A stretch of 64,000 bases of DNA from Caldanaerobius polysaccharolyticus DSM 13641 (GTDB lineage Bacteria > Bacillota > Thermoanaerobacteria > Thermoanaerobacterales > Caldanaerobiaceae): positions 314,476-378,475 of the forward strand of contig NZ_KE386494.1 of the NCBI RefSeq assembly GCF_000427425.1, in the 5' to 3' direction. The notes under the pieces are model-generated. The model worked only from the letters and a program-made list of their open reading frames with translations. It was not told where the DNA came from and did not search any database. The translations under genes and the position numbers were made by a program. This document shows, in pieces, positions 1,970 to 37,585 of the stretch. The first letter of the stretch is position 1. Each line of letters begins with the position of its first letter.

Positions 1970-3307
1970 TTAATTCGTTTTCACATCAGGATACGCATTT
2001 TTGACGTCTTTTTTAAACTGATTTAAAGCATCTTGTTTGTTTTTCTTGCCATCTACGTACAATCCCACACTGTTGGTAAAAAGGGAATTGATATTAGAAT
2101 CGTATTCCGTCACGATAGACGGATCAATATTTTGAACACCGTCATTTAAAATCTTGTAATAATTTTGCCCTCCAAGGAACGGTTCTCCAAAGGAATCGGA
2201 ATTGACAAACTCTTTTATTATGGGTACATAACTTACAAAATCGCCCTTTTCTTCTATATATTGCCTTAAATAATCTTTATTGGATGTGACAAATTTTACA
2301 AATTGCCACGCCAGATCTTTGTTCTGGCTCTTTGAATATATTCCTAGCCATGTCCCGCCATTCCAGAATTTTGCCGGCCCATTTGCTAGCGCCCAATCGC
2401 CACTGGTTTTTGGAGCGTTAACTTTTATGACATACTGCAATCCCCAGCTGGCCAAAAAATAACCGAAAACAGTCCCTTGTGCCATAGAAGCTGACCAAGC
2501 AGGTGTCCATGGATTTATCTTTGCTTCTATATTATTATCCCTGGCTTGTTTGGCCAAATCAAAAACCTTCATCATTTCAGGGTCCACAATCAGGGTATTG
2601 TCTTTCACCCACGGATCTTTCCTGATCCCCAACTGTATAGTCTGCAAGTCTTGCCAGCTTGCCAGTAAATGCACTTTGCCGTTGCTTTGCTGGTATACCT
2701 TTTTACCCATGTCAAACAATCCATCCATAGTACTTGCCATCTGAGAAATCTGCGCAGGGTCATCTGTGCCAAAATACTTTTTTGCTAGACTTCTTCTATA
2801 CCAGAACCCACCAGGCGTCGCTTGCCAGGAAAGGGCCCGTATATTGCCCTTGTTGTCGCTACCTAATTTAACCACATATGGCACCATATTAGCCGCTATC
2901 TCGTCTGCATTATAAGGCGGTGCAGATAAATTTTCCCAGTAATCGGTTTTAGACCATATCCTTACAAACTGTTGCTCACCGCTAAACATATCAGGTACGC
3001 CTACCCCTGCCTGCAAAACCGATCTCATTTTTGTTATGTAATCGTTAAACGGCATTTGCGTAAATTGTACCTTGATATTGGGGTAAACTTTATTAAATTG
3101 CTGTATCATATATTTGGGTTCATCAGTAAACGACCACAAAGTAATTGTCCCTTTGTAATCCTCAGGCTTTCTCTCTGCCACGTTAGATGTACTTGTCTTG
3201 CCCTGCGAGCTAGTCGAACTTGAACTGCTTTTTGAACATCCGGAAAACCATGGAACAATCATAAATAATGTCAATAAAAGCGCTACAATCTTCTTCCTGG
3301 ATAACAT
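1970..3307 (-). CDS. Sugar ABC transporter substrate-binding lipoprotein
   Basis: This is an extracellular family 1 solute-binding protein of 445 aa. The signal peptide (residues 1-23) ends in a lipobox WFSGC, giving lipidated Cys24, followed by a Ser/Thr-rich linker. The mature part begins with the typical GTITLWSFTDEPKYMIQQFN. The ATG follows GGGGGAAGG. It is the first gene of an importer whose promoter at 3.44 kb shares its operator type with the alpha-glucuronidase operon at 37.4 kb. I infer uptake of xylo-oligosaccharides or aldouronic acids; the protein alone does not show this. Confidence 0.88.
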   Translation of the reverse strand: MLSRKKIVALLLTLFMIVPWFSGCSKSSSSSTSSQGKTSTSNVAERKPEDYKGTITLWSFTDEPKYMIQQFNKVYPNIKVQFTQMPFNDYITKMRSVLQAGVGVPDMFSGEQQFVRIWSKTDYWENLSAPPYNADEIAANMVPYVVKLGSDNKGNIRALSWQATPGGFWYRRSLAKKYFGTDDPAQISQMASTMDGLFDMGKKVYQQSNGKVHLLASWQDLQTIQLGIRKDPWVKDNTLIVDPEMMKVFDLAKQARDNNIEAKINPWTPAWSASMAQGTVFGYFLASWGLQYVIKVNAPKTSGDWALANGPAKFWNGGTWLGIYSKSQNKDLAWQFVKFVTSNKDYLRQYIEEKGDFVSYVPIIKEFVNSDSFGEPFLGGQNYYKILNDGVQNIDPSIVTEYDSNINSLFTNSVGLYVDGKKNKQDALNQFKKDVKNAYPDVKTN

Positions 3308-3414: not shown

Positions 3415-3548
3415 AACTTTATTAAGTTTCTAACCTTATCTTACTCCGCCGTAAAAACATTTTCAAAGTCCAAATTGGCTCAAATTTCCTTGAATTCGCG
3501 GAATATTCGCCGTTTTTTTTTTTTTAAGAATTTTTCTCACGATTTCTT
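3415..3548 (-). promoter_or_regulatory. Conserved-family promoter, copy 1 (operator type II)
   Basis: Reading leftwards, the core is TTGAAA (3461-3466), exactly 17 nt, then TAAGAT (3438-3443). Nine bases after the -10 is AACTTAATAAA, part of a dyad AAACTTAATAAAGTTT (3415-3430), followed by a T-run and AAAAAG. Upstream to about 3548 it shares blocks with three other promoters in this window: CGTGAGAAAAATTCTTAAA, GGCGAATATT and an AAATTT-rich stretch. It drives the binding-protein gene at 3307 with a leader of about 120 nt. Confidence 0.75.
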
Positions 3549-3579
3549 CATCTTTCTTCATTTATTGCCTTCATGTACC

Positions 3580-8037: not shown

Positions 8038-9201
8038 TTACATACACCTGCGTATAAGATATATAATATCTTCCCTGGTTGCCATTTTAGGATGACCTTT
8101 AAGGTCCAATTGAAAACTGGTGTACACCGTATCGGCAAAGCACTCAATCTGATCTTCTTTTAACCCGTATTCACCAAAGGTCACATCCGCCCCAATCTCT
8201 TTGAACAAACCCTCCAGTATCAGGGGCAACCTAGAGGCTTTCTTATTTACAGGTTCAGACTTTAAAGAAGGATCAAGCATCTCCGCTACCACGGCAAACT
8301 TTTCAGCGGCTACAGGCAACGTCCACTCCACCACCTCAGGCAAGCATGCCGCTATTGTGCCTCCATGGGGCGCATTGGTCAGCCCGCTTAACGGCTGCCC
8401 CAACGCGTGGGGTACCGTCGTCCCTGCATGGGCTATAGCCATACCACCAAAGTACACGCCAGCGCCATCTCCTTCTCGCCTTTATATTAGAACCGTTCTT
8501 CACCGCCTCTACTATATTCCCCGCAAAGCGCTTTATGGACTCTAATGCTACCATCTCTGAAAACGGATGGGCATTCACGTTTATATACGACTCAAAAGCG
8601 TGGGAAAAGGCATCTACACCGGTTAACGCCGTAAGGGCAGGAGGCATGGTCATCATCAACTCAGGATCTACAATGGATGCCACGGAAAAACCATAGGGCT
8701 TACTATAGTACATTTCTGGTGAATCGCTGGATTGTTTATTACAGCATAAGGCGTGGCTTCACTCCCCGTTCCTGCGGTGGTAGGCACAGATATCAAAGGC
8801 AATCCTTTTACCTTGGGCCGCACTACATTGGCGCCCAGCCTCTCTGTGTATTCCCAACAGCTCCCTTCATTGGTCGCCAGCAAAGCTATGGCTTTTCCCG
8901 TATCTATAGAGCTTCCCCCACCTATAGCTATTACCATGTCATAGTTCCCATTGCGCACCATCTCTGTTCCTTTATCTATAAGCTCTACCGTGGGGTTAGG
9001 AACCACTTCGTAAAAAGGAACGGCTTTCACTCCTACCTCAGTGAGTTTTCTTTCCACTCTCTCTTCTACAGCACTTCCCTTTAGAAACGGGTCAATCACC
9101 GCAAAAGCTGTTTTACCGTACTTCTTTGCGATTTCTCCTATGCGATCTGCCTCCCCTTCGCCAAAGAAAATCTCAACCGGAAAGTCCACTTTAAATCTCA
9201 T
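8038..9201 (-). pseudogene. Iron-containing alcohol dehydrogenase, FucO-like, frameshifted
   Basis: The sequence encodes a type III iron-dependent alcohol dehydrogenase: the GGGSSIDTGKAIA nucleotide-binding loop, VPTTAGTGSEAT, metal-ligand segments TGVDAFSHAFESY and TVPHALGQPLSGL, and APHG. It starts at ATG 9201 after AGGGAGA. The frame breaks three times. One base is missing near 8683-8692 (VFP to VASIVDPEL). Another is missing near 8471-8478 and a third near 8453-8464; only a middle frame reads EMALA there. All parts are otherwise intact, about 385 aa when joined. In a fucose operon the likely role is reduction of lactaldehyde to 1,2-propanediol, but butanol-type dehydrogenases look alike. 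Confidence 0.85.
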
Positions 9202-9214
9202 ATTCTCCCTCTCT

Positions 9215-10690
9215 CTACTTAATTTCGATCTTGATCCTAAACGCCACAGGATATTCCTTCGGTTCGCATCCTGCAATATCAATAACCAAGGCCTGATCAC
9301 TGCGATTCCATTTAAGCGGTACATCACAACCTATAAGCTCTACTTTATCGATATGCGGCGTGCCAAACGGTGAGTTTGCACCTAGCGATTTTATACTTAC
9401 GCGTCCACTTTCAGGCCATTTAAGGACAACAGCGTATAAAGTATCACCTTTGGTAGTAAAGCGTATATCCTCACTTGTAAACGCACTTCGCTTCGTATCT
9501 GTAAAAGCGCCATCAGTGACTTTTGTAGGACCTTCCCCAAAGACTTTCCATGGGCGTGTTCCATAAATAGCCTCGCCGTTAATCTTAAGCCAGCGTCCAA
9601 TTTCCATAAGGATCTCCCGTTCTGGCTCTGGTATGGTGCCATCAGATTTCGGCCCGATATTAAGGAGCAGCGACCCATTTTTACTGACAATATCCACCAA
9701 ATCACAGATAATTTCATTGGGAGCTTTGTAGTCATGATTTTCGATGTATCCCCATGAGTTCTTTGACACCGATGTGTCTGTTTGCCAGAAACGCTGGCGA
9801 ATATCAGAAAATTGTCCTCGCTCTATGTCAAATACAGCCGTGCCTTCCTCGTACGCATTATATTTGTAATTTATAGCAACTTCTTTATTCCATTCTACTG
9901 CTCTATTGTAATAATAAGCTGCAAACTTCCTAAGATATGGTTTAAATGCTAAGTTCTGTATCCACCAATCAAACCATACAATCTGCGGCTGATATTTGTC
10001 AACCAGTTCACAGACACGGAGTAACCAATCCTCCAAAAATTCCTCATCAGGAGGACTCTCCTCAACACTGCCCAAATCTTTGGGTGCAGGCCTGGCCGGA
10101 CCGTAAAAATCACGGTAACGAGGATCCCTAACATCTGAGTCAAATTTCATTCCACCATCAAAAAACCACCAGTGCTCGGCGCGATGGTTTGAAAGACCAA
10201 ACACCAATCCCCTTTCTCTGACTACTGCAGCCAATTCTCCTATGATATCTCTCTTGGGCCCCATATTGGCAGCATTCCATATGGAAACAGCGCTATCATA
10301 CATCTGAAATCCATCGTGGTGCTCAGCCACAGGCACTACATATCGCGCTCCCGACTTTTCAAACAAATCAGCCCATGCCTTAGGATCAAATTTTTCTGCT
10401 TTAAACATAGGTATAAAATCTTTATAGCCGAACTGGCTTTGTGGACCATAGGTTTTGACATGATGCTCAAACTCGGGAGTGCCTTGCTGGTACATATTGC
10501 GAGGATACCATTCATTTCCGAATGCAGGAACTGAGTATACACCCCAATGTATGAAAATACCAAATTTCCCATCTTCATACCATTGCGGTATCCTGTAGTT
10601 TAAAAGAGACTGCCATGTATCAGCAAAAGGTCCTTTAGAAATAACATCGTTTATCTTTTTCATCATTTTCTCTTTTATATCCTCTGTCAT
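9215..10690 (-). CDS. GH29 alpha-L-fucosidase (first copy)
   Basis: A retaining alpha-L-fucosidase of 491 aa without signal peptide. It has the GKFGIFIHWGVYSVPAFGNEW entry to the barrel, VPVAEHHDGFQMYDS, and the nucleophile Asp241 in IVWFDWW. The late segment KNGSLLLNIGPKSDGTIP is also typical of GH29. The ATG at 10690 follows AAAGGAGG by six bases. The frame can be read further upstream, but only through the operator-like sequence at 10710-10724. It lies between fucI and the dehydrogenase. It shares only moderate similarity with the second GH29 at 12.7-13.9 kb, so the two probably differ in linkage preference (inference). Confidence 0.94.
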   Translation of the reverse strand: MTEDIKEKMMKKINDVISKGPFADTWQSLLNYRIPQWYEDGKFGIFIHWGVYSVPAFGNEWYPRNMYQQGTPEFEHHVKTYGPQSQFGYKDFIPMFKAEKFDPKAWADLFEKSGARYVVPVAEHHDGFQMYDSAVSIWNAANMGPKRDIIGELAAVVRERGLVFGLSNHRAEHWWFFDGGMKFDSDVRDPRYRDFYGPARPAPKDLGSVEESPPDEEFLEDWLLRVCELVDKYQPQIVWFDWWIQNLAFKPYLRKFAAYYYNRAVEWNKEVAINYKYNAYEEGTAVFDIERGQFSDIRQRFWQTDTSVSKNSWGYIENHDYKAPNEIICDLVDIVSKNGSLLLNIGPKSDGTIPEPEREILMEIGRWLKINGEAIYGTRPWKVFGEGPTKVTDGAFTDTKRSAFTSEDIRFTTKGDTLYAVVLKWPESGRVSIKSLGANSPFGTPHIDKVELIGCDVPLKWNRSDQALVIDIAGCEPKEYPVAFRIKIEIK

Positions 10691-10709
10691 AAAAAACCTC
10701 CTTTTAAAT

Positions 10710-10724
10710 TTAAAGCGTTTCAAT
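10710..10724 (-). promoter_or_regulatory. Internal operator-like site in the fucose operon
   Basis: ATTGAAACGCTTTAA matches the type I operators at 17366-17380 and 18819-18833 with one substitution, and has the central CG of LacI/GalR-family sites. It lies 20 nt before the GH29 start, overlapping the run-up to its ribosome site. No -10/-35 pair is seen at the spacing found in the promoter copies. It may act as a roadblock, or be a catabolite (cre-like) site. Confidence 0.55.
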
Positions 10725-15827: not shown

Positions 15828-17144
15828 TCACTTAGTTACTTTTGAAGATATTTCTCTTATTTGTTGATCCATCTTTGGGATAATATCTGCTGCTTTAGCT
15901 TTGCCAAAATAAATCGGTTGCAAAACGTTTTGGGTTATGAAATTGTCTGCTTCTGTCCAATTAGCCGTCACATAAGGTGCAACTTCATCAGCTAAACACT
16001 TTTCTAACGCCTCCTGGGCACCAGGAACATTAGCAGCACCTTTATAATACTCTTCCTGAACACTTTTCCTAGCAGGAAATGCCCTTCCATTCTTAGCTAA
16101 CAATGACAATGCCTCTTTACTAGTAAAATAAGAAACTACTTTAAAAGCCTCTTCAGGATATTTTGTCTTGGCATATATACCAAATCCAGAGCCTTGTACA
16201 TATGTCGTTCTCTTGCCTGACGTTGGCGATAGTGGCGTAGGAGCTACAGCAAAATTAAATTTTGTATTTTTCTTTGTATTTATTAGACTCCACGGGCCGT
16301 CGTAGTACATTCCAATATGCCCCGCATACCAACGGTCAGATAAAGAATTTGCCGTTAAATCCGATAAGGTAGGGGCAACGTGATACACATTTATAAGATC
16401 TGCAAACCACTGAATCGACTCAATAGCCTTGGGATTGTTAAATGTGATCTGATCTTTGCTTTTATCGACATAATCACCGCCGTTAGATATAATATAATGC
16501 ATATTGGTCCACCATGCTCCATCAAGGGCAAAACCAAAGTCGTGATTTTTGGGATTGGTCATTTTCTTAGCAGCATCTAGTAAGTCATTCCATGTCCACT
16601 TATCAGTAGGATAAGATACCTTATATTTGTCAAACATGTCTTTGTTATAGAAAAGAATAAGTGGTCCAAAATCATAAGGTAATGCATACGTTTTACCATC
16701 ATAACACAATTCATTTAACATATCTGCAAAAAAGTCATCTATATCAAGTTGCTGTTGTTTTATATAGCCATCAAGCGGCAACAATGCATTCCTTTGAGCA
16801 TATTCACGTGCCTTTGTCCAATGTATGCCCACTACATCTGCAGCTGTTCCACCGGCAACTTGTGCAGGTAACTTTTGCCAATAAGTATTCCAATCAACCG
16901 TCTCTAACTTTACATTTATATTTGGATACTTTTTTGTGACATCCCGTGCTATCTGCTGCCACAATTCCCTATCCTCAGCCCCAGCCCAAAACTGGACCCT
17001 GATTGTGACTTGTTTGTTTTTACCAACATCTTTATTTGATCCATTAGAGGGTTTACTGCCAGATGAGTTACAACTAGAAAGTATCAGTATTAAAGAAAAA
17101 ATTATAGATAATAATACTATATTTTTCTTCTTTTTTGTTTTCAT
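15828..17144 (-). CDS. Sugar ABC substrate-binding lipoprotein, fucose operon
   Basis: Family 1 extracellular solute-binding protein of 438 aa. From the ATG at 17144, which follows GAGGGGG, the N-terminus is Lys-rich, then hydrophobic, then LSSC, a lipobox giving a lipid-anchored Cys, with a Ser/Gly/Asn linker behind it. The mature domain begins VTIRVQFWAGAEDRELWQQI. It is the first gene of the fucose operon, 220 nt downstream of a type I promoter. Binding of fucosylated glycans is inferred from the downstream enzymes. Confidence 0.9.
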   Translation of the reverse strand: MKTKKKKNIVLLSIIFSLILILSSCNSSGSKPSNGSNKDVGKNKQVTIRVQFWAGAEDRELWQQIARDVTKKYPNINVKLETVDWNTYWQKLPAQVAGGTAADVVGIHWTKAREYAQRNALLPLDGYIKQQQLDIDDFFADMLNELCYDGKTYALPYDFGPLILFYNKDMFDKYKVSYPTDKWTWNDLLDAAKKMTNPKNHDFGFALDGAWWTNMHYIISNGGDYVDKSKDQITFNNPKAIESIQWFADLINVYHVAPTLSDLTANSLSDRWYAGHIGMYYDGPWSLINTKKNTKFNFAVAPTPLSPTSGKRTTYVQGSGFGIYAKTKYPEEAFKVVSYFTSKEALSLLAKNGRAFPARKSVQEEYYKGAANVPGAQEALEKCLADEVAPYVTANWTEADNFITQNVLQPIYFGKAKAADIIPKMDQQIREISSKVTK

Positions 17145-17365
17145 AAATATCCCCCTCATATAAATGATTTGAAATCAACAGGATCGGCAGAATCGGATTT
17201 CATGATCGCTCTAAATCCCCCCCTTGAAAATAATACTTCTAAAATTTAGCAAAAAAATTATATACAAATCACCACCTTCTCTTGAATTTTGGTTGCAGAA
17301 TCTCCAAAACATGATAAATTAAGGGATTCTCTTCATTTTGCAACTACCTACTTGACTTTAATAAC
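17145..17365 (-). promoter_or_regulatory. Long structured 5' leader of the fucose operon
   Basis: About 220 nt separate the predicted start site from the binding-protein ATG, far longer than needed. GTTGC and AGAATC on one side can pair with GATTCT and GCAAC further down (about 17280-17350), forming a bulged hairpin. A TTG-started frame of 18 codons (17211-17267) follows AAGGTGGTGA and would encode a short hydrophobic peptide. No known riboswitch is recognised. Confidence 0.4.
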
Positions 17366-17643
17366 TTAAATCGTTTCAATAACATTTTAACTTAACATAA
17401 AAATGTTTTCAAAGTCTAAAATTGCTTAAATCTATCGAATATCAGCTGATTTTCTGCTGTTTCTTGAATTTTTTTCGTGCTATCTCGTTTTTTCTTCATT
17501 TTACATGCTATTCATATTTAAATTCCTTCTACTTGTATATAAAACGTTGTCATTATTTTTTAAAGACAAACTTACAACTCTAAGTATCACCAGCAATGCT
17601 GTTCACTTTAACTTTTTCTTTTTATTGAGGCCATATATAATCG
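17357..17643 (-). repeat. Repeated intergenic block, copy A
   Basis: About 287 nt matching 18810-19095 in the same orientation, roughly three quarters identical by eye. The best stretch is about 40 nt including TTGTAAGTTTGTCTTTAAAA and TGACAACGTTTTATAT. It contains promoter copy 2. This copy has many stops in all minus frames. Confidence 0.75.
17366..17500 (-). promoter_or_regulatory. Conserved-family promoter, copy 2 (operator type I)
   Basis: Reading leftwards: TTGAAA (17407-17412), 17 nt, TAAAAT (17384-17389), three bases, then the operator ATTGAAACGATTTAA (17366-17380) over the expected start site. Upstream, CACGAAAAAAATT, GAAAATCAGCTGATATTCG and ATTTAAGCAATTTTAGAC match copy 3 closely and copies 1 and 4 more loosely. 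It drives the fucose operon. Confidence 0.78.
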
Positions 17644-17679
17644 CATTAAAATACAGTAGTGTGCTATAAAACACCTTTA

Positions 17680-18738
17680 TCATCTGCGACTCAATTTATT
17701 ATAAATTTCATTATAGTAAAGGGCATTTTCAACAGGAGTATTCGGTGGTATATGATTACCCACAGCCATAAAAAATCCAGGGCAATTCTTACCTATATCC
17801 ATGCATCTCCTGACTTCATTATATATATCTTCCTTTGTTCCGTTTAACAATATAAGTGTATCCGCATTTCCTATAAAAACATGGGTTTTCCCGTATTTTT
17901 CAGCAATATATTTCATATCAGTAGTGGGCTCCATTACAAAACCATGAATACCACAATCCGCAATGTCATCTATAAATTCCGTATAATTACCATCTGATGT
18001 GTAAATTATTTTCTTTCCGCTCTCAATAAGCGGTGCAAACAACTTTTTATAATTAGGAAATACGTATTTGCGGTACCACTGAGGGTGTAAAAAAGCACCC
18101 GATGTCCATACGATATCGTCGTGTATCATCACTACAGGTACATCAGCTTCTCCCAGAGCATCAAAATACTGATGAATCCATGATGCGTAGCGATTAGTCA
18201 ACTCTCCAAAGCCCTCTATATCCGTACCTGCAGCCAGAAGCAGCATATCCCAACCAAAAATACCGATAAGCCCTGACATGCAAGATACATAAATACCTGT
18301 CATATTTACGCCGTCAGGATAAAACCGGCAGTTCTTTTTATAATGTTCCTCAAAATCCTTCACCAATGCTTTTTTATCCCTGCTCCCGTATATTTCCCAC
18401 GGATCAAATCTGAGAACGTCTTCAGGACTGTTAAAAGGACAATATACCTCTGAGCTAAAATCAACTCCCCCTGACGCATACGCGGCATGGCCCATCTTAG
18501 TCCGCACATCGCCGAAGACGTCGGCATCAATCAACGTGCTCCACACAAAGTCGTAATTCCATGCTTTCATAAAAGCATATTTAGCTTTGCTCTGCACATC
18601 TGCTGGGCTCTCAGCATTTACATCAATGCCAGTCACGGTTTTTACCAGATCCCAATGAAATTCAGCCGAATACTCTGTGCGTGGAACTCTCGGCGGCATC
18701 TCCAAATTTATAGCGGCCATTCCATCACTATATGACAT
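17680..18738 (-). CDS. UroD/methyltransferase-family protein, fucose regulon
   Basis: This 352-aa protein has the uroporphyrinogen-decarboxylase/MtaA-type barrel fold, judged from segments such as PPRVPRTEYS, ADVPVVMIHDDIVWTSGAF, KKIIYTSDGNYTEFIDDIA and HVFIGNADT. Where zinc methyltransferases carry a Cys (CGN), this one has DGN, so it belongs to an uncharacterised subgroup often found near sugar genes. Haem synthesis is unlikely: no other haem genes are nearby and it has its own promoter with the fucose-type operator. A role in handling a modified sugar is speculation. The ATG has only a weak ribosome site (AAGAGATG). Confidence 0.8.
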   Translation of the reverse strand: MSYSDGMAAINLEMPPRVPRTEYSAEFHWDLVKTVTGIDVNAESPADVQSKAKYAFMKAWNYDFVWSTLIDADVFGDVRTKMGHAAYASGGVDFSSEVYCPFNSPEDVLRFDPWEIYGSRDKKALVKDFEEHYKKNCRFYPDGVNMTGIYVSCMSGLIGIFGWDMLLLAAGTDIEGFGELTNRYASWIHQYFDALGEADVPVVMIHDDIVWTSGAFLHPQWYRKYVFPNYKKLFAPLIESGKKIIYTSDGNYTEFIDDIADCGIHGFVMEPTTDMKYIAEKYGKTHVFIGNADTLILLNGTKEDIYNEVRRCMDIGKNCPGFFMAVGNHIPPNTPVENALYYNEIYNKLSRR

Positions 18739-18809
18739 AGATAAAACGCATCTCTTTTAAATCTTTTATCAATCGTCATACCGCAGCAATCGATTTTTTC
18801 TATTCATGG

Positions 18810-19095
18810 CTTAATTTATTAAATCGTTTCAATAGTATTTTAACTTAATATGAGAATATGTTCAAACTCTAAAATTAATTAAATCTACCGATATCCACTG
18901 ATTTTCTTTTGTTTTTAAAATTTTTCTCGTGTTATCTCATTTTTTTCCTTTATTTTAAAAGCTATGTCGTTTAAAATTTCTTTACTCTCATATAAAACGT
19001 TGTCACCATTTTTAAAGACAAACTTACAATTCCGAGTACTGTCAACTATAATGTCTAGTTTAACTCCTTCTTCCCACTAAGGCCAGATATGATCG
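18810..19095 (-). repeat. Repeated intergenic block, copy B
   Basis: Partner of 17357-17643. In this copy one minus frame is open for about 50 codons, roughly 18,917-19,070, ending EITREKF-stop; it includes NCKFVFKNGDNVLYESKE. The same frame is broken in copy A. It could be the relic of a gene end carried with the promoter, or chance in a conserved non-coding block. Beyond 19095 the similarity stops near insertion-sequence debris. Confidence 0.7.
18819..18950 (-). promoter_or_regulatory. Conserved-family promoter, copy 3 (operator type I)
   Basis: Reading leftwards: TTGAAC (18860-18865), 17 nt, TAAAAT (18837-18842), three bases, and ATTGAAACGATTTAA (18819-18833), the same 15-mer at the same offset as in copy 2. 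Upstream it has CACGAGAAAAATTTTAAAAAC and GAAAATCAGTGGATATCGG. It drives the UroD-like gene with a leader of about 95 nt. Confidence 0.78.
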
Positions 19096-19121
19096 TAAAA
19101 AAATAAAAGGCAGCATAAGAA

Positions 19122-19229
19122 CTAACATTGCATTCTTTCGCTAACGGCCCCTTTGCTTTTCTTGCTTTGCAAATAATCTTTTACGGCTGATAATTTTTGT
19201 TCAAAAGTTACGTTGGATTTTTGTCTCAT
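19122..19229 (-). pseudogene. Truncated IS3-type transposase OrfA relic
   Basis: A 35-codon frame starts at an ATG with MRQKSNVTFEQKLSAVKDYL, typical of the helix-turn-helix start of IS3/IS150-type OrfA proteins. It stops after SERMQC, so nearly all of the element is lost. A hairpin (19242-19269) directly upstream resembles the end region of such elements. Confidence 0.6.
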
Positions 19230-19241
19230 AAAAAATATGCC

Positions 19242-19269
19242 CCCCTTGAAGTAACTCTACTACAAGGGG
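19242..19269. mobile_element. Hairpin at probable end of IS relic
   Basis: CCCCTTG pairs with CAAGGGG, then after one mismatch AGTA pairs with TACT around a 4-nt loop. It sits 13 nt upstream of the transposase-like ATG. It is probably a structured terminal or leader part of the decayed element. Confidence 0.4.
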
Positions 19270-19275
19270 AACATA

Positions 19276-19443
19276 TCACGTCCCTGCCACCAGCCTTTTT
19301 TGTCCTATGAGAGGCAGTTCTTGTAGAAAACGAAGGTATAAATATCTTGATACTGTGCTGTTTCGCGCATTGTCATCTTTAATGTCTATGTATCCTGTCT
19401 TGCTATTTATTTCTAATAAAAAATCATCCACAAATGTTATACT
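19276..19443 (-). pseudogene. Unidentified coding relic
   Basis: An open frame of 55 codons without a usable start, overlapping the terminator on its upstream side. It reads YIDIKDDNARNSTVSRYLYL then RFLQELPLIGQKRLVAGT-stop. The composition looks like the C-terminal end of a real protein whose 5' part is gone. I do not recognise the family. It lies between the deacetylase terminator and the IS relic. Confidence 0.35.
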
Positions 19444-19472
19444 TCACATAACATAATAGTGGATGATTTTTT
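19418..19472. terminator. Strong bidirectional terminator
   Basis: AAAAAATCATCCAC pairs with GTGGATGATTTTTT (14 bp), and inside the loop ATGTTAT pairs with ATAACAT. T-runs occur on both strands. It ends the deacetylase transcript and isolates the importer cluster from the relics to its left. Confidence 0.88.
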
Positions 19473-19485
19473 ATATAACCTTATT

Positions 19486-20286
19486 TCATTTTAATTTAAT
19501 TCTCTCACCAGAATCTATTTTTATCGGCTCACCATCTACACCGATCCATACAGGTATTGCTGATGGATTATATACCATGCTGCGATCAGCACTAAATTTT
19601 AAACTCCTCAATGCGTCTATATAATCCTTTATTTCAATATTTGTAGCGTACCACACGGTTTCATCAAATGATGCCATTTTGCAAAATTCTTCTATTAGAT
19701 CCCAATTGCCATTTCTGTCGAACTCGAAGCTGTGTCCCCATACATAAAATAGAGGCATCTGTTCCCATTCTTTTAGGTTCTTAAATTCCTTCAGCTTCTG
19801 TATAACATCTTGATCATGATGGCAAGTCGGATGCCATTCTAAAAAATTATTGGGTATCCCAAAGCTTTTAGTAGACTTAACCGTCCTAGAATACTCTATG
19901 CCAAATGATGTAAGACTATTTAGCAACGCATCGCTGTAGTCTCCATAAGGATATGCCATACCTCGTACTTGATAGCCTACAAGCGATTCGAGATTTTTCC
20001 TATCTTCCATTATTTGATAGGCCAGTTCCTCTGGCGGTATCAACGACAAACACGGATGATTTAATGAATGAACTGCTACTTCATGTCCTTTATACAACTC
20101 TTTTATCTCTTTCTTAGACACATAAGGTTCTGTATCAAATCTGCCTGAATTCAAATTGAATGTGCCTTTGATGCCGTATTTGTTAAATATCTCTACCAAT
20201 CTTCTGTCAAATACCTGGCCATCGTCATAGCTCATCGTCAAAGCTTTTTTCTTTCCACCATGATAATAGCCAAAGCTTATCTTCAC
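19486..20286 (-). CDS. Polysaccharide deacetylase family protein (CE4-like)
   Basis: A 266-aa NodB-homology protein with no signal peptide. Motif 1 is TMSYDDG (catalytic base and metal Asp), motif 2 is HSLNHP (metal His pair), motif 3 is YPYGDYS. Its expected reaction is metal-dependent deacetylation of an N- or O-acetylated sugar. Being cytosolic and downstream of an importer, it may deacetylate an imported oligosaccharide (inference). The start ATG lies after AGGGGGGAATAGAGGTG. A GH3 relic separates it from the permease genes. Confidence 0.85.
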   Translation of the reverse strand: MKISFGYYHGGKKKALTMSYDDGQVFDRRLVEIFNKYGIKGTFNLNSGRFDTEPYVSKKEIKELYKGHEVAVHSLNHPCLSLIPPEELAYQIMEDRKNLESLVGYQVRGMAYPYGDYSDALLNSLTSFGIEYSRTVKSTKSFGIPNNFLEWHPTCHHDQDVIQKLKEFKNLKEWEQMPLFYVWGHSFEFDRNGNWDLIEEFCKMASFDETVWYATNIEIKDYIDALRSLKFSADRSMVYNPSAIPVWIGVDGEPIKIDSGERIKLK

Positions 20287-22447: not shown

Positions 22448-23767
22448 TTATTTTCCGTTTATCTTCTGTTGCATTTGTTTTGAATACTCTTCTGGAGTAA
22501 TCTGTTTTGCAAACAATTGAGCAACTAAATCTTTATGTGTCTGAGCAGCATCGCCACTAAGATAAATATCCCAAGCAGGAACACTACCCTTAGCATTTGC
22601 AACGATATTATTCATAATCTGTATCTCTAATGGATCAACTTTTGATTGATCTACATTGTCATATTTCCACGCTGGTAAGCCAGCAGCTATCAAATATTCC
22701 ATATCTGATAACTGTTTTGCAAGATACTTGGCAGCTCTAACTGCCTCATCTTTGTACTTTGAATTTGCACTAACCATTAATGCTCCAACTGAACCGCCAA
22801 TATACTCTGTAGGATCTCCTTTGCCACCTTCAATTGTAGGGAATCTCACTGCTTCAATTTTACCTTTTACAAGAGATGATGGATCTGAAACAAATGCTGC
22901 TGCATCGAAATTTCCTCCAAAGTACATAGCAGCTTTCCCTTGGTTAAATTCTGCTGTGGCTTCATCCCTTGTAAGACCCATAAAACCAGAATCAAACGCA
23001 CCCGCATTAACCATGTCTTGTAACTTTTGAGCTGCATCTGTAAAAGCTTGATTGTCAAATGATGCCTTGCCGTTTAAAGCATCTCTTGTAAGCTGTACAC
23101 CACCTTCGCGAAGTGCAATCATGTCGTAGTACCACATTCCAGGCCATTCATCTTTTTCACCTAATGCAAAAGGCGTTACACCTTTAGACCTAAATGTCTT
23201 TATAGCGTCGATAAGTTCACTAAATGTGGTTGGAACCTTTACATTGTATTTATCAAAAAGCTCTTTATTTATATAGAGTACACTTGCTTGTTGATCAAAT
23301 GGGATGCCATATATTTTCCCATTATATGTGACATTGTCAAAAGAACCTGGTAGCAATTGATCCTTTGTGCCATCGTTTAAGTAGCTATCTAACTGAAGAA
23401 CCTTTCCCGCTTCTACAAAAGGTTGTGAAAACCCTCCAGCCCAAGTCTGGAAAATATCAGGTGCTTCATTTGCAGCAATTGCAGCTTTAATCTTCGTCTT
23501 GTACGCATCATTTTCTGTCACGCTTTCTACAATCTGCACATTTGGATTTTCTTTATTCCACTGATCGATGATCTCTTTAACTTTCGTTTTTGCCGGTTCG
23601 CCAGTAAATAAATTCCAAAAGGTAAGCGTTATCTTTTTTGACGAACTTGAAGTCTTCGATGAGTTTGAAGTATTCGACTTGCTTAAATTATTAGAACTAC
23701 ACGCCGATGCACTAAGTACTAGAAATAAAGATAACACAATCAGCATCAATTTTTTAAATCCCTTCAT
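22448..23767 (-). CDS. Sugar ABC substrate-binding lipoprotein, two-component-linked
   Basis: Family 1 solute-binding protein of 439 aa. The signal peptide ends in the lipobox SASAC; a Ser/Asn linker follows, then KKITLTFWNLFTGEPAKTKV. The ATG at 23767 follows AAAGGATG. It is the first gene of an importer placed directly after a YesM/YesN-like pair, the usual arrangement when that pair senses the substrate and activates the importer. The substrate is unknown; the GH3 relic and deacetylase downstream suggest an acetylated beta-linked oligosaccharide (weak inference). Confidence 0.9.
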   Translation of the reverse strand: MKGFKKLMLIVLSLFLVLSASACSSNNLSKSNTSNSSKTSSSSKKITLTFWNLFTGEPAKTKVKEIIDQWNKENPNVQIVESVTENDAYKTKIKAAIAANEAPDIFQTWAGGFSQPFVEAGKVLQLDSYLNDGTKDQLLPGSFDNVTYNGKIYGIPFDQQASVLYINKELFDKYNVKVPTTFSELIDAIKTFRSKGVTPFALGEKDEWPGMWYYDMIALREGGVQLTRDALNGKASFDNQAFTDAAQKLQDMVNAGAFDSGFMGLTRDEATAEFNQGKAAMYFGGNFDAAAFVSDPSSLVKGKIEAVRFPTIEGGKGDPTEYIGGSVGALMVSANSKYKDEAVRAAKYLAKQLSDMEYLIAAGLPAWKYDNVDQSKVDPLEIQIMNNIVANAKGSVPAWDIYLSGDAAQTHKDLVAQLFAKQITPEEYSKQMQQKINGK

Positions 23768-24022
23768 TACCACACATCCTTTCTCAAATAATTTTAAAAT
23801 AGATTACATATACATGATAAAATACTAAATCATCAATATGAATATAATTTTTTTACTACAATCTTCAATTTTTTTACCTTGTTTATTTACTATATAAGGT
23901 CAAGTCCAAATTTTAGTGTAAAAATCCCTCTGGCTAAAACCAGGTGTTTCTATCACCAACGTTTGGATTATCAGGAAATACCCTGATTACTCTATATTTT
24001 TTTGACAACAACCTTCGAGTCC
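23768..24022 (-). promoter_or_regulatory. Regulatory gap between response regulator and importer
   Basis: About 255 nt, strongly AT-rich. Near the regulator's end there are small hairpins (23950-23990). Towards the importer, TTGATG and TATATG-like hexamers could form a weak promoter, as expected for one needing an activator. The stretch near 23890-23925 resembles an insertion-sequence end, but I cannot confirm this. It does not contain the promoter-family sequence seen at the other importers. Confidence 0.4.
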
Positions 24023-25636
24023 CTAAGATTTTACAATACTTTTTATCAATTTTTTGTACTCACTTACTTTTAAACCTGTATACTTTTTAAAGCACGATGA
24101 AAAATAATTAGGGTCTTGTATGCCGACTGCATTAGCGATTTCAAATAATTTCATGTTTTTTTCTTTTATCAAATTTATTGCTTTTTCCATTCGCTTATTT
24201 GTAAGGTATTCTATAAAGTTTATGCCTGTCTCCTTTTTAAATGTCCTGCTTAAATAGCTGGGATTTAAGTAAAAGTGTTTTGCGACGTACGACAGCGAAA
24301 GATTACTATCGCCGATATTTTCCTCTATGAATTTTTTAACATTAGCGATTAAATTGTTGATATTGTTTATCTGCTCTTTGTTTATTGCCTTAATTGTATT
24401 TCTTACAATTGTTGATATATATTCAATCATGTCAGGCAGCGTCTCTATATTTATGATTTTGTTGTATGACTCTACTTCAGATAAATATATATCATCAAAG
24501 TTTTCTTTTAGTTCCAATGACACAGAGAAACAGATTGATATTACATTTAATGCTGTAACACGGATCAACTTGATTGCATTTTCGCTTTTAAGGTCTAAAT
24601 TAGAAAATATGTCTTTTACCACATTTATTGCATTGTTTTCTAAACCTGATTTCAGGTAAAATCTCAATTCATTAAACAGGTGATTAGTGTCGAGCCCAGT
24701 TTTGCTTTCTGTAAATTGCACGTCTCTGTAATGTATGACACTGTTGTTGCCAACTGCTATGCGGTAATTTAATGCATCTATTGCCTCTTCGTACGATACT
24801 TTGATGTCACTTATCCTTCCTTTTATATTTCCTATGCCAATATTTACAATACAGTCAACATCCTTGATGATTTTATTTTTTAGTCTTATACAGGTTTTAT
24901 ACAGATCTAATTTTTCGTCGTTATTTAAGATGATAATTCTATTCATTGAATCAGCAAAAACCATTATCCTTCTCAACTCTTTAAAATAACTTTTTACGTA
25001 GTTGATCACTTTAAAATTTTGAATCAGACGAGATTCTTCGTTTACATCATTTGAATTGATAATCTCTAAAACGGCAACTTGATAAATACTGCCATTCAAA
25101 GGTATATCGAAGAATTCTAGCTTTTCTTTTACCAAATTATCGTCTAAATTGCCATTTATCAGCTCATTTAAAAACCGTTCTTTTAAATAAGGTAGATTAT
25201 CGTAAAGCTGTCTTTTTAATTCTTCAAATTCTTCTTTCTTTTTTCTTTCATTTTCTATGACTGCTTTTAGCTTATATACGGTATTTGAGACTTCATCTTC
25301 GTCTATCGGCTTAAGCAAAAAGTCAAATACCCCTATTTTTACGGATTTTTGAGCGTAAACAAAGTCATTGTAGCCTGTGACAACGACAATCTTTATTGTA
25401 GGATATTTTTGTAAAATAGATTCGCTGAATTTTATACCGTCAATTCCGGGCATTTTTATGTCGGTAAAGACTACATTTGGCTTAAATTCGTCTATTAGTT
25501 TAAAACCTTCCTCCGCGTTTGACGCTTCGCCTACTATTTCCATTCCAAGCGTGTCCCAATCTATACAACCTTTTAATAGATTTCTTTCAAGATACTCATC
25601 GTCAATAATGAGCACTTTTATCTTATCCTTTATCAT
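24023..25636 (-). CDS. AraC-type response regulator (YesN-like)
   Basis: A 537-aa transcription factor. The receiver domain (residues 1-125) has the acidic pair IDDE and phosphorylated Asp59 in VFTDIKMPG. A long middle region follows. The C-terminus (about 430-535) has two AraC helix-turn-helix motifs: LSLSYVAKHFYLNPSYLSRT and LFEIANAVGIQDPNYFSSCF. It starts 14 nt inside the kinase gene, after GGAGGAG, so the two are translationally coupled. It most likely activates the importer immediately downstream. Confidence 0.93.
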   Translation of the reverse strand: MIKDKIKVLIIDDEYLERNLLKGCIDWDTLGMEIVGEASNAEEGFKLIDEFKPNVVFTDIKMPGIDGIKFSESILQKYPTIKIVVVTGYNDFVYAQKSVKIGVFDFLLKPIDEDEVSNTVYKLKAVIENERKKKEEFEELKRQLYDNLPYLKERFLNELINGNLDDNLVKEKLEFFDIPLNGSIYQVAVLEIINSNDVNEESRLIQNFKVINYVKSYFKELRRIMVFADSMNRIIILNNDEKLDLYKTCIRLKNKIIKDVDCIVNIGIGNIKGRISDIKVSYEEAIDALNYRIAVGNNSVIHYRDVQFTESKTGLDTNHLFNELRFYLKSGLENNAINVVKDIFSNLDLKSENAIKLIRVTALNVISICFSVSLELKENFDDIYLSEVESYNKIINIETLPDMIEYISTIVRNTIKAINKEQINNINNLIANVKKFIEENIGDSNLSLSYVAKHFYLNPSYLSRTFKKETGINFIEYLTNKRMEKAINLIKEKNMKLFEIANAVGIQDPNYFSSCFKKYTGLKVSEYKKLIKSIVKS

Positions 25637-37387: not shown

Positions 37388-37525
37388 AAAAAAGTTTATT
37401 AAGTTGCCAGTTCTATCTTACCTCACTATGAAAATATTTTCAAAGCTTAAATTTCATTAAATTTGACTAAATTCACCTTATATTCGCTGTTTTTTCTTGT
37501 TCTTTAAAGTATTGCTCACGTTTCC
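37388..37525 (-). promoter_or_regulatory. Conserved-family promoter, copy 4 (operator type II)
   Basis: Reading leftwards: TTGAAA (37438-37443), 17 nt, TAAGAT (37415-37420), nine bases, then AACTTAATAAA followed by a T-run and AAAAAG, the same module at the same offset as copy 1. Upstream it has CGTGAGCAATAC, CAGCGAATATAAGGTGAATTT and AAATTTAATGAAATTTAAGC. It drives the xylan operon. Confidence 0.77.
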
Positions 37526-37585
37526 TCTTCTTTTCTCTTCTTTTTACCTAAATACTTCATTACAGATGCCCTTTTTGCGATTTTA

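Follow-up and report, generated by a model that had tools for sequence, protein, structure and literature searches.

Promoter regions that resemble one another before non-homologous genes of a single genome are known as putative mobile promoters, or as the outcome of promoter propagation, and promoters with phased A-tracts or UP elements carry A/T tracts at the helical period upstream of the -35 hexamer. For sugar genes, the closest described systems include regulons with sites on both sides of the core promoter. In Caldicellulosiruptor bescii, sites of LacI, ROK and GntR type lie behind or over the promoter, also in the 5' UTR, and are taken by the authors as sites of repression, and two-component regulators of AraC type use upstream tandem repeats and are taken as activators (available part of PMC8579813). 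Here, we describe a stretch of 64,000 nucleotides from Caldanaerobius polysaccharolyticus DSM 13641 (contig NZ_KE386494.1, hereafter the window), in which one intergenic block stands on both sides of a URO-D-family gene in a fucose cluster. The two blocks probably represent a genus-level promoter cassette that is ~200 bp long, and an acquired gene probably joined the fucose regulon by promoter duplication.

The repeated block and its relatives

The regions around 17357-17643 and 18810-19095 of the window align over ~295 bp at 77% identity (blastn, E 5.9e-56). Their local alignment score is 151, whereas 300 dinucleotide shuffles average 15 and never exceed 26, which confirms the repeated intergenic block put forward in the original prediction, and the TTGTC and GACAA arms described there are seen in the left and the right copy alike. 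Since the long frames selected from 0.4 to 37.4 kb all lie on the minus strand, each block lies upstream of a gene. Read on that strand, the right block is followed by the URO-D-family gene, and the left block by genes for the sugar-binding protein, two permeases, a GH29 fucosidase and L-fucose isomerase; the right block thus precedes the URO-D-family gene and the left block precedes the sugar-binding-protein gene (Table 1).

A blastn search of the genome (G000) returned, besides the two window copies, three dispersed partial matches better than E 1e-3, and a further match was found in a congener (G001) before a binding-protein gene that is, by eye, the counterpart of the one behind the left block. 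More relatives were found with profiles. A sequence-only profile built from six copies (R1) detected 31 places in this genome at E <= 1e-4, including two more in the window (3429-3571 and 37405-37552); of 61 genomes, the other 58 had no R1 match. A longer profile built from 32 copies (R2, 204 positions) matched this genome 32 times and G001, the one congener searched, 11 times at E <= 1e-3; among 24 genomes of the order it added one strong copy in another family (G016, E 2.4e-23) and weak matches in G009 and G011 (E 1-2e-4). R2 gave no match in 397 other genomes drawn from the phylum, a scan in which at most six candidates per genome were scored, weak copies could escape, and G001 and G016 were not among the matches, most likely as they were not drawn. 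The genome sets of the R1, R2 and phylum searches overlap. About 197 bp of each window copy belongs to the cassette, and the 27 copies aligned from this genome are 61-100% identical pairwise. A literature search over titles and the openings of abstracts found no description of such a cassette.

The genes behind the cassettes are mostly sugar genes. This genome has 33 SBP_bac_1 genes in 32 clusters, and 15 of these clusters are preceded, within 1.2 kb, by a cassette in the same orientation. In 5000 trials, random placement averaged 0.24 such clusters and never gave more than 3; anti-oriented cassettes are found at none of the 32. The main downstream frame lies on the strand of the cassette in 39 of 41 loci, the exceptions being L039 and the partial match L060. 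Other first genes in this genome encode a Peripla_BP_4 protein, an ATPase of the ATP-binding cassette (ABC) type, an SBP_bac_5 protein, GH127, GH67, a mannitol-dehydrogenase-like protein, a histidine kinase and the URO-D-family protein. No clear target stands behind L051, where the downstream frame of 290 aa has no Pfam family. At L039 (G000:C2:6114-6258), which has a XylR-like site, the 1.5 kb downstream contain no frame of 70 codons in the orientation of the cassette, and the operon seems to be gone; the only frame there is on the opposite strand and looks transposase-like by eye, with no Pfam match. The first gene behind the ten G001 copies is SBP_bac_5 in five cases and an ABC ATPase in one, and no Pfam match was obtained for the frame behind L072 or for the second frame behind L071 (the first L071 frame, L063 and L073 lay outside the scan).

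Two further arrangements of the cassette were observed. On contig C1 (G000:C1:5678-6815; L049, L052, L061 and L062), two cassettes stand in tandem, and ~70 bases upstream of each lies a partial second one. The permease genes behind them have similar beginnings, and one is shortened to 152 aa; a cassette and gene of similar kind are found at L048 (G000:C3:924455). The tandem arrangement would fit a local duplication of cassette plus gene. The copy from another family (L064, G016:C1:1544195-1544332) is a single full cassette before an FMN-oxidoreductase gene and has perhaps moved together with its operon.

Table 1. Positions of features in the window (R1 and R2, cassette profiles; G000, this genome).
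Feature	Position	Strand	Basis
Right cassette copy, before URO-D-family gene	18819..19015	-	R2 match G000:C2:333294-333490, E 2.2e-19; R1 match 18823-18964, E 1.4e-24
Left cassette copy, before sugar ABC operon	17368..17563	-	R2 match G000:C2:331843-332038, E 7e-23; R1 match 17370-17519, E 1.5e-27
Extra upstream stretch common to right and left copies only; upstream end of the duplication	19016..19105	-	aligned to 17564-17653
Extra upstream stretch of left copy, common to right copy only	17564..17653	-	aligned to 19016-19105
-35 hexamer TTGAAC, right copy, 17-bp spacer	18860..18865	-	copy alignment
-10 hexamer TAAAAT, right copy	18837..18842	-	copy alignment
-35 hexamer TTGAAA, left copy, 17-bp spacer	17407..17412	-	copy alignment
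-10 hexamer TAAAAT, left copy	17384..17389	-	copy alignment
LacI-type operator-like site TTGAAACGATTTAA, just behind -10, right copy	18819..18832	-	exact match
LacI-type operator-like site TTGAAACGATTTAA, left copy	17366..17379	-	exact match
LacI-type operator-like site with one mismatch, third in the window, at the 5' end of a fucosidase gene's long frame (9218-10723)	10710..10723	-	
URO-D-family gene, 352 aa, between the two copies	17680..18738	-	PF01208, E 1.8e-26, residues 173-340
Sugar-binding-protein gene, 443 aa, first behind left copy	15828..17159	-	PF01547
Third window cassette, XylR-like operator, before sugar-binding-protein gene 1973-3307	3429..3571	-	R1 E 1.6e-17; operator match G000:C2:317879-317901
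Fourth window cassette, XylR-like operator	37405..37552	-	R1 E 9.8e-16; operator match G000:C2:351856-351878
Open frame, 53 codons, no start codon, WEEGVKLDIIVDSTRNCKFVFKNGD...REKF, right copy; judged non-coding	18918..19076	-	

Common architecture and differing operators

The anatomy of the cassette was read from 38 aligned copies (27 from this genome, ten from G001 and one from G016) anchored on -35-like words. Outside these counts stand the partial matches L060-L062, two weak matches in this genome (C2:937791 and C3:205032), one in G001 (C6:29457) and the weak matches in G009 and G011. Part of the copies begin with a far-upstream word related to GATAACGTTTGATATGG, which is followed by GAGAAAAATG-like units, an A-tract and CGGCGAATATTCGG; then come two AATTTG-like units ten bases apart and TTTGAAAATGTTTT, which contains the -35. 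This hexamer is TTGAAA in 34 of the copies. The best-scoring -10 lies at a distance of 17 bp in all 38, where only 16-18 were tried and 17 was slightly favoured; it is mostly TANNNT and is unconvincing in L072. The distance from GAATATTC to the -35 is 31 bases in 26 copies and 41 in seven, and is read as 30 in L067, which carries an insertion; the word was not located by the script in L041, L054, L071 and L072, and the alignment shows a 10-base insertion in L054. Such a 10-base insertion amounts to one additional AATTTG-like unit, so that copies hold two or three of them.

AA/TT dinucleotides recur with a period of 10.0 bp (z 16.8 over the 38 copies, a value that overstates their independence as the copies are related), and 25 copies taken singly score as high as the highest 5% of shuffles of their own sequence. 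In sequence terms, the cassette carries helically phased A/T tracts and 10-bp AATTTG-like units over about -185 to -40, ahead of a sigma-A-like core, TTGAAA-17-TANNNT. CcpA and CodY sites were weighed as candidates for the operator and the AATATTCWGAAAA word, but neither of them accounts for the 185-bp array.

Just behind the -10, many copies carry a candidate pathway-specific operator, and its type differs between copies. The two window copies and their G001 counterpart share TTGAAACGATT (class F), and both window copies have an exact match to the LacI-type site TTGAAACGATTTAA. With up to two mismatches allowed, TTGAAACGATTTAA occurs three times in the window (two of them exact) against 1.13 expected, a number reached by 11 of 100 shuffles and weak when taken alone. 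A XylR-like site (class X) is present at a loose threshold in 13 of the 38 copies. The stricter pattern CTTANTAAANTTTNTTTAAAAAG, at up to two mismatches, has 11 matches in the genome, ten of them exact, and all 11 lie directly behind a cassette; its reversed control pattern has none in the genome. By eye, the XylR-like pattern fits the 25-bp consensus inverted repeat of group-1 XylR, ACTTattAAAnnnnnTTTaaAAAgt (available part of PMC2873477). The fourth cassette of the window, one of those with a XylR-like operator, precedes genes assigned by Pfam to GH67, GH3, a xylose-isomerase-like protein, a sugar kinase, transaldolase and transketolase. In class A, which comprises four copies, two TACGTA-type sites face each other in a way that resembles AraR sites. 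The exact word ATGTACGTATAC has three matches, all behind cassettes; with one mismatch there are 23, four at cassettes and 19 elsewhere, and 12 for the reversed control. In 18 of the 38 copies the operator class was left unassigned.

The operators do not seem to follow the cassettes to which they are attached. L063 (class F) and L067 (class X) of G001 have cassettes that are 90% identical pairwise and operators that differ. Placed on the cassette tree, the operator classes need 16 changes against a shuffled mean of 16.9, and 73 of 200 shuffles are as low; no coupling of operator class to the tree is thus seen among the 38 copies, the tree itself being weak. Because the classes are unclustered and L063 and L067 share a cassette and not an operator, cassette and operator would seem to act as separate modules, as far as a weak tree allows.

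The flanked genes and the probable duplication

The left and right copies are closer to each other than to any other copy. In gapped pairwise alignment they are 84% identical, with a median of 70% to the other copies; over 194 columns of the multiple alignment the value is 66% and still the highest for both, and the two form a clade with support of 100/97. The next 90 bp upstream are shared by these two only: elsewhere in the genome there are matches of 14-25 bases (best E 0.004), and none was found in 60 relatives at E <= 0.01. Further upstream of the right block, at 19416-19474, lies a perfect 16-bp inverted repeat (ATAAAAAATCATCCAC / GTGGATGATTTTTTAT) with 27 bases between its arms, terminator-like in appearance.

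The gene between the copies has no close counterpart in the congener. In 37 genomes searched, a relative of 38% identity in G001 is the only one of the URO-D-family protein apart from itself, and the other 35 gave no match at E <= 1e-20. Its 68 relatives of 46-82% identity are spread across distant phyla and come from Clostridia, Planctomycetota, Kiritimatiellales, Spirochaetes and others. In Sporanaerobium hydrogeniformans (L080 2932-5059), two URO-D-like frames are direct neighbours, next to frames that by eye encode an AraC-type regulator and a large glycosidase-like protein. Proteins of this family may belong to sugar use. Behind the sugar-binding-protein gene of the left copy follow the permeases (by permease matches), the GH29 fucosidase (PF01120) and the L-fucose isomerase (by its domains). 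The iron-type alcohol dehydrogenase gene of the fucose cluster (8041-9327, minus strand) is split into two frames, 8671-9327 and 8041-8457, by a frameshift or a sequence error.

The simplest history would be that the URO-D-family gene was gained laterally and the block was duplicated, with a direction and mechanism that we infer. As the gene arrived in the fucose cluster, a second copy of the promoter region before the sugar ABC operon would have arisen, either by tandem duplication or by single-crossover integration of a circle at the block; both routes would leave the order block-gene-block. The newcomer would thereby have gained its own promoter under the same repressor, so that the right copy would now drive the URO-D-family gene, and the old operon would have kept one. 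One alternative of the original prediction, in which an upstream operator array was duplicated together with its promoter and seeded a new regulon member, is thus supported: the blocks are sister promoter cassettes, and the gene between them lacks a close counterpart in the congener.

Several observations weigh against this picture of a regulon enlarged by duplication. The cassette tree is poorly resolved, with four of 35 inner branches well supported, and the identity of the two copies varies with the alignment (84% pairwise, 77% by blastn, 66% in the multiple alignment), so that the event would be old, or the copies had already diverged. The G001 promoter L063, which stands before the matching binding-protein gene, is nearer to other cassettes than to the left copy, which points to promoter exchange or conversion that blurred the history. 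The periodicity of the right copy is weaker (29 of 500 shuffles as high) than that of the left (2 of 500). A cassette is absent from the remaining 17 of the 32 SBP_bac_1 clusters, among them the neighbouring cluster at 22451-23773. As an operator, TTGAAACGATTTAA is a short, imperfect palindrome with a central CG and five of seven pairs over 14 bases, and LacI-type sites are normally CG-centred even palindromes of 16-22 nt (available part of PMC4052901). Finally, no LacI-family DNA-binding domain was found in 31 of the 35 selected frames between 0.4 and 46 kb, the four permease frames being outside the scan.

Possible function of the array and comparison with known systems

How the cassette might work can be outlined in two steps. 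A common activator, or alpha-CTD together with DNA bending, would read the phased upstream array and yield strong, general 'sugar' expression, and a downstream repressor (LacI-, XylR- or AraR-like) would add specificity for the sugar. In this outline the common reader of the array would be the activating part and the local repressor the specific one. We tentatively extend this to the genus, in a proposal that is possible, though short of an even chance: one global activator or bending complex would assemble on the phased array of ~150-185 bp ahead of ~30 promoters, mostly of sugar genes, specificity would come from the exchanged repressor operator, and new genes would join by acquiring a copy of the cassette, as the URO-D-family gene would have done.

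A serious rival, though on balance an unlikely one, is a purely structural strong promoter, in which phased A-tracts and a UP-like element are read by RNA polymerase alone and all regulation comes from the downstream operators. The sharp 10.0-bp period of AA/TT would be expected of such a promoter, as would the A-rich tract and the A/T units that reach to the -35. However, conserved words that are not made of A and T only (CGGCGAATATTCGG and the AGAAAACGTGAG region) extend far past a usual UP element, and the number of AATTTG-like units shifts by a whole 10-bp step, in the manner of binding sites.

Much less probable is a selfish mobile repeat similar to miniature inverted-repeat transposable elements (MITEs) or repetitive extragenic palindromes (REPs), or a 'mobile promoter' that spreads by itself. 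The original prediction held that many genomic copies would point to such an element, and copies are indeed many: there are ~32 dispersed matches, with the pairwise identities given above, nearly confined to one genus among the genomes searched, and an isolated strong copy occurs in another family before an oxidoreductase gene. However, the cassettes cluster before sugar genes and point one way there, none being reversed at the 32 sugar-binding clusters, and this fixed orientation and position fits a regulon better than a selfish repeat; in addition, the words inside the cassette and its 17-bp core show the conservation of a working promoter. Of the 25 inverted-repeat pairs listed (of 26), none frames either block in the manner of the terminal inverted repeats of a MITE or an insertion-sequence remnant.

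Hardly credible at all is the second alternative of the original prediction, the decayed end of a gene duplicated together with a promoter: the frame is indeed open over 53 codons in the right copy, as had been claimed, and a KFVFK stretch is common to the left copy, but the left copy has stops, as also claimed, and frame-breaking gaps, the start codon is absent, substitutions by codon position number 10, 13 and 11 of 52 each and show no periodicity, 572 of 2000 shuffles of the block hold a frame of at least 53 codons, the left copy holds a longer chance frame of 71 codons in some frame, the best family matches are unconvincing (Pfam E 0.083, PHROGs E 0.051), and 98 of the 159 frame bases (18918-19015) fall within the cassette common to many promoters. 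For these reasons the coding reading is rejected; the repeated block is non-coding. No known structured RNA was matched either: an Rfam scan of 17100-19500 gave three matches that are all below the gathering score, the best being a yeast snoRNA at E 0.082.

If the proposal of a shared array with exchangeable operators, enlarged by promoter duplication, is true, the locus would be a clear natural case of regulon growth, and the cassette would represent a modular promoter design in which one upstream array and core are combined with changing operators. With ~43 matches in two species, what reads the array becomes directly testable, and the cassette could serve as a ready-made regulated promoter for such hosts.

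Compared with putative mobile promoters, the copies described here form a functional set that mostly serves sugar genes and combines a long phased array with operators of several kinds. Phased A-tract and UP-element promoters share the helical period, whereas the array here is ~150-185 bp long and its conserved words hold G and C. The promoters of the group-1 XylR (ROK family) regulon of Clostridia are similar in that the site behind 11 cassettes fits their 25-bp consensus by eye and in that one cassette with a XylR site heads GH67, GH3 and sugar-kinase genes; they differ in that the two window blocks bear a LacI-like site and in that the available part of the paper does not mention a shared upstream cassette of 200 bp (PMC2873477). 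With the regulons of C. bescii, the cassette would have a two-sided layout in common, in which tandem repeats lie upstream of the core, LacI-, ROK- or GntR-type sites lie behind it and fucose genes are under a repressor. In the available part of that study, the two-component activators are called local and the repeat spacers searched are large, 21 or 32 bp, which amounts to two or three helical turns (PMC8579813); the cassette, in contrast, has two or three AATTTG-like units at 10-bp steps, in a long array common to ~30 promoters with differing sites behind. The window does contain a response regulator with an AraC-type domain (24026-25636), and the adjoining sugar-binding gene at 22451-23773 is without a cassette. 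Finally, tandem duplication with promoter capture is described as a way of activating horizontally transferred genes (available part of PMC11111574), and as in that system a new gene would have gained expression here by duplication; there, however, it is a matter of laboratory technique and selection, whereas the URO-D-family gene of the fucose cluster would represent an old and natural case, as judged from its sequence.

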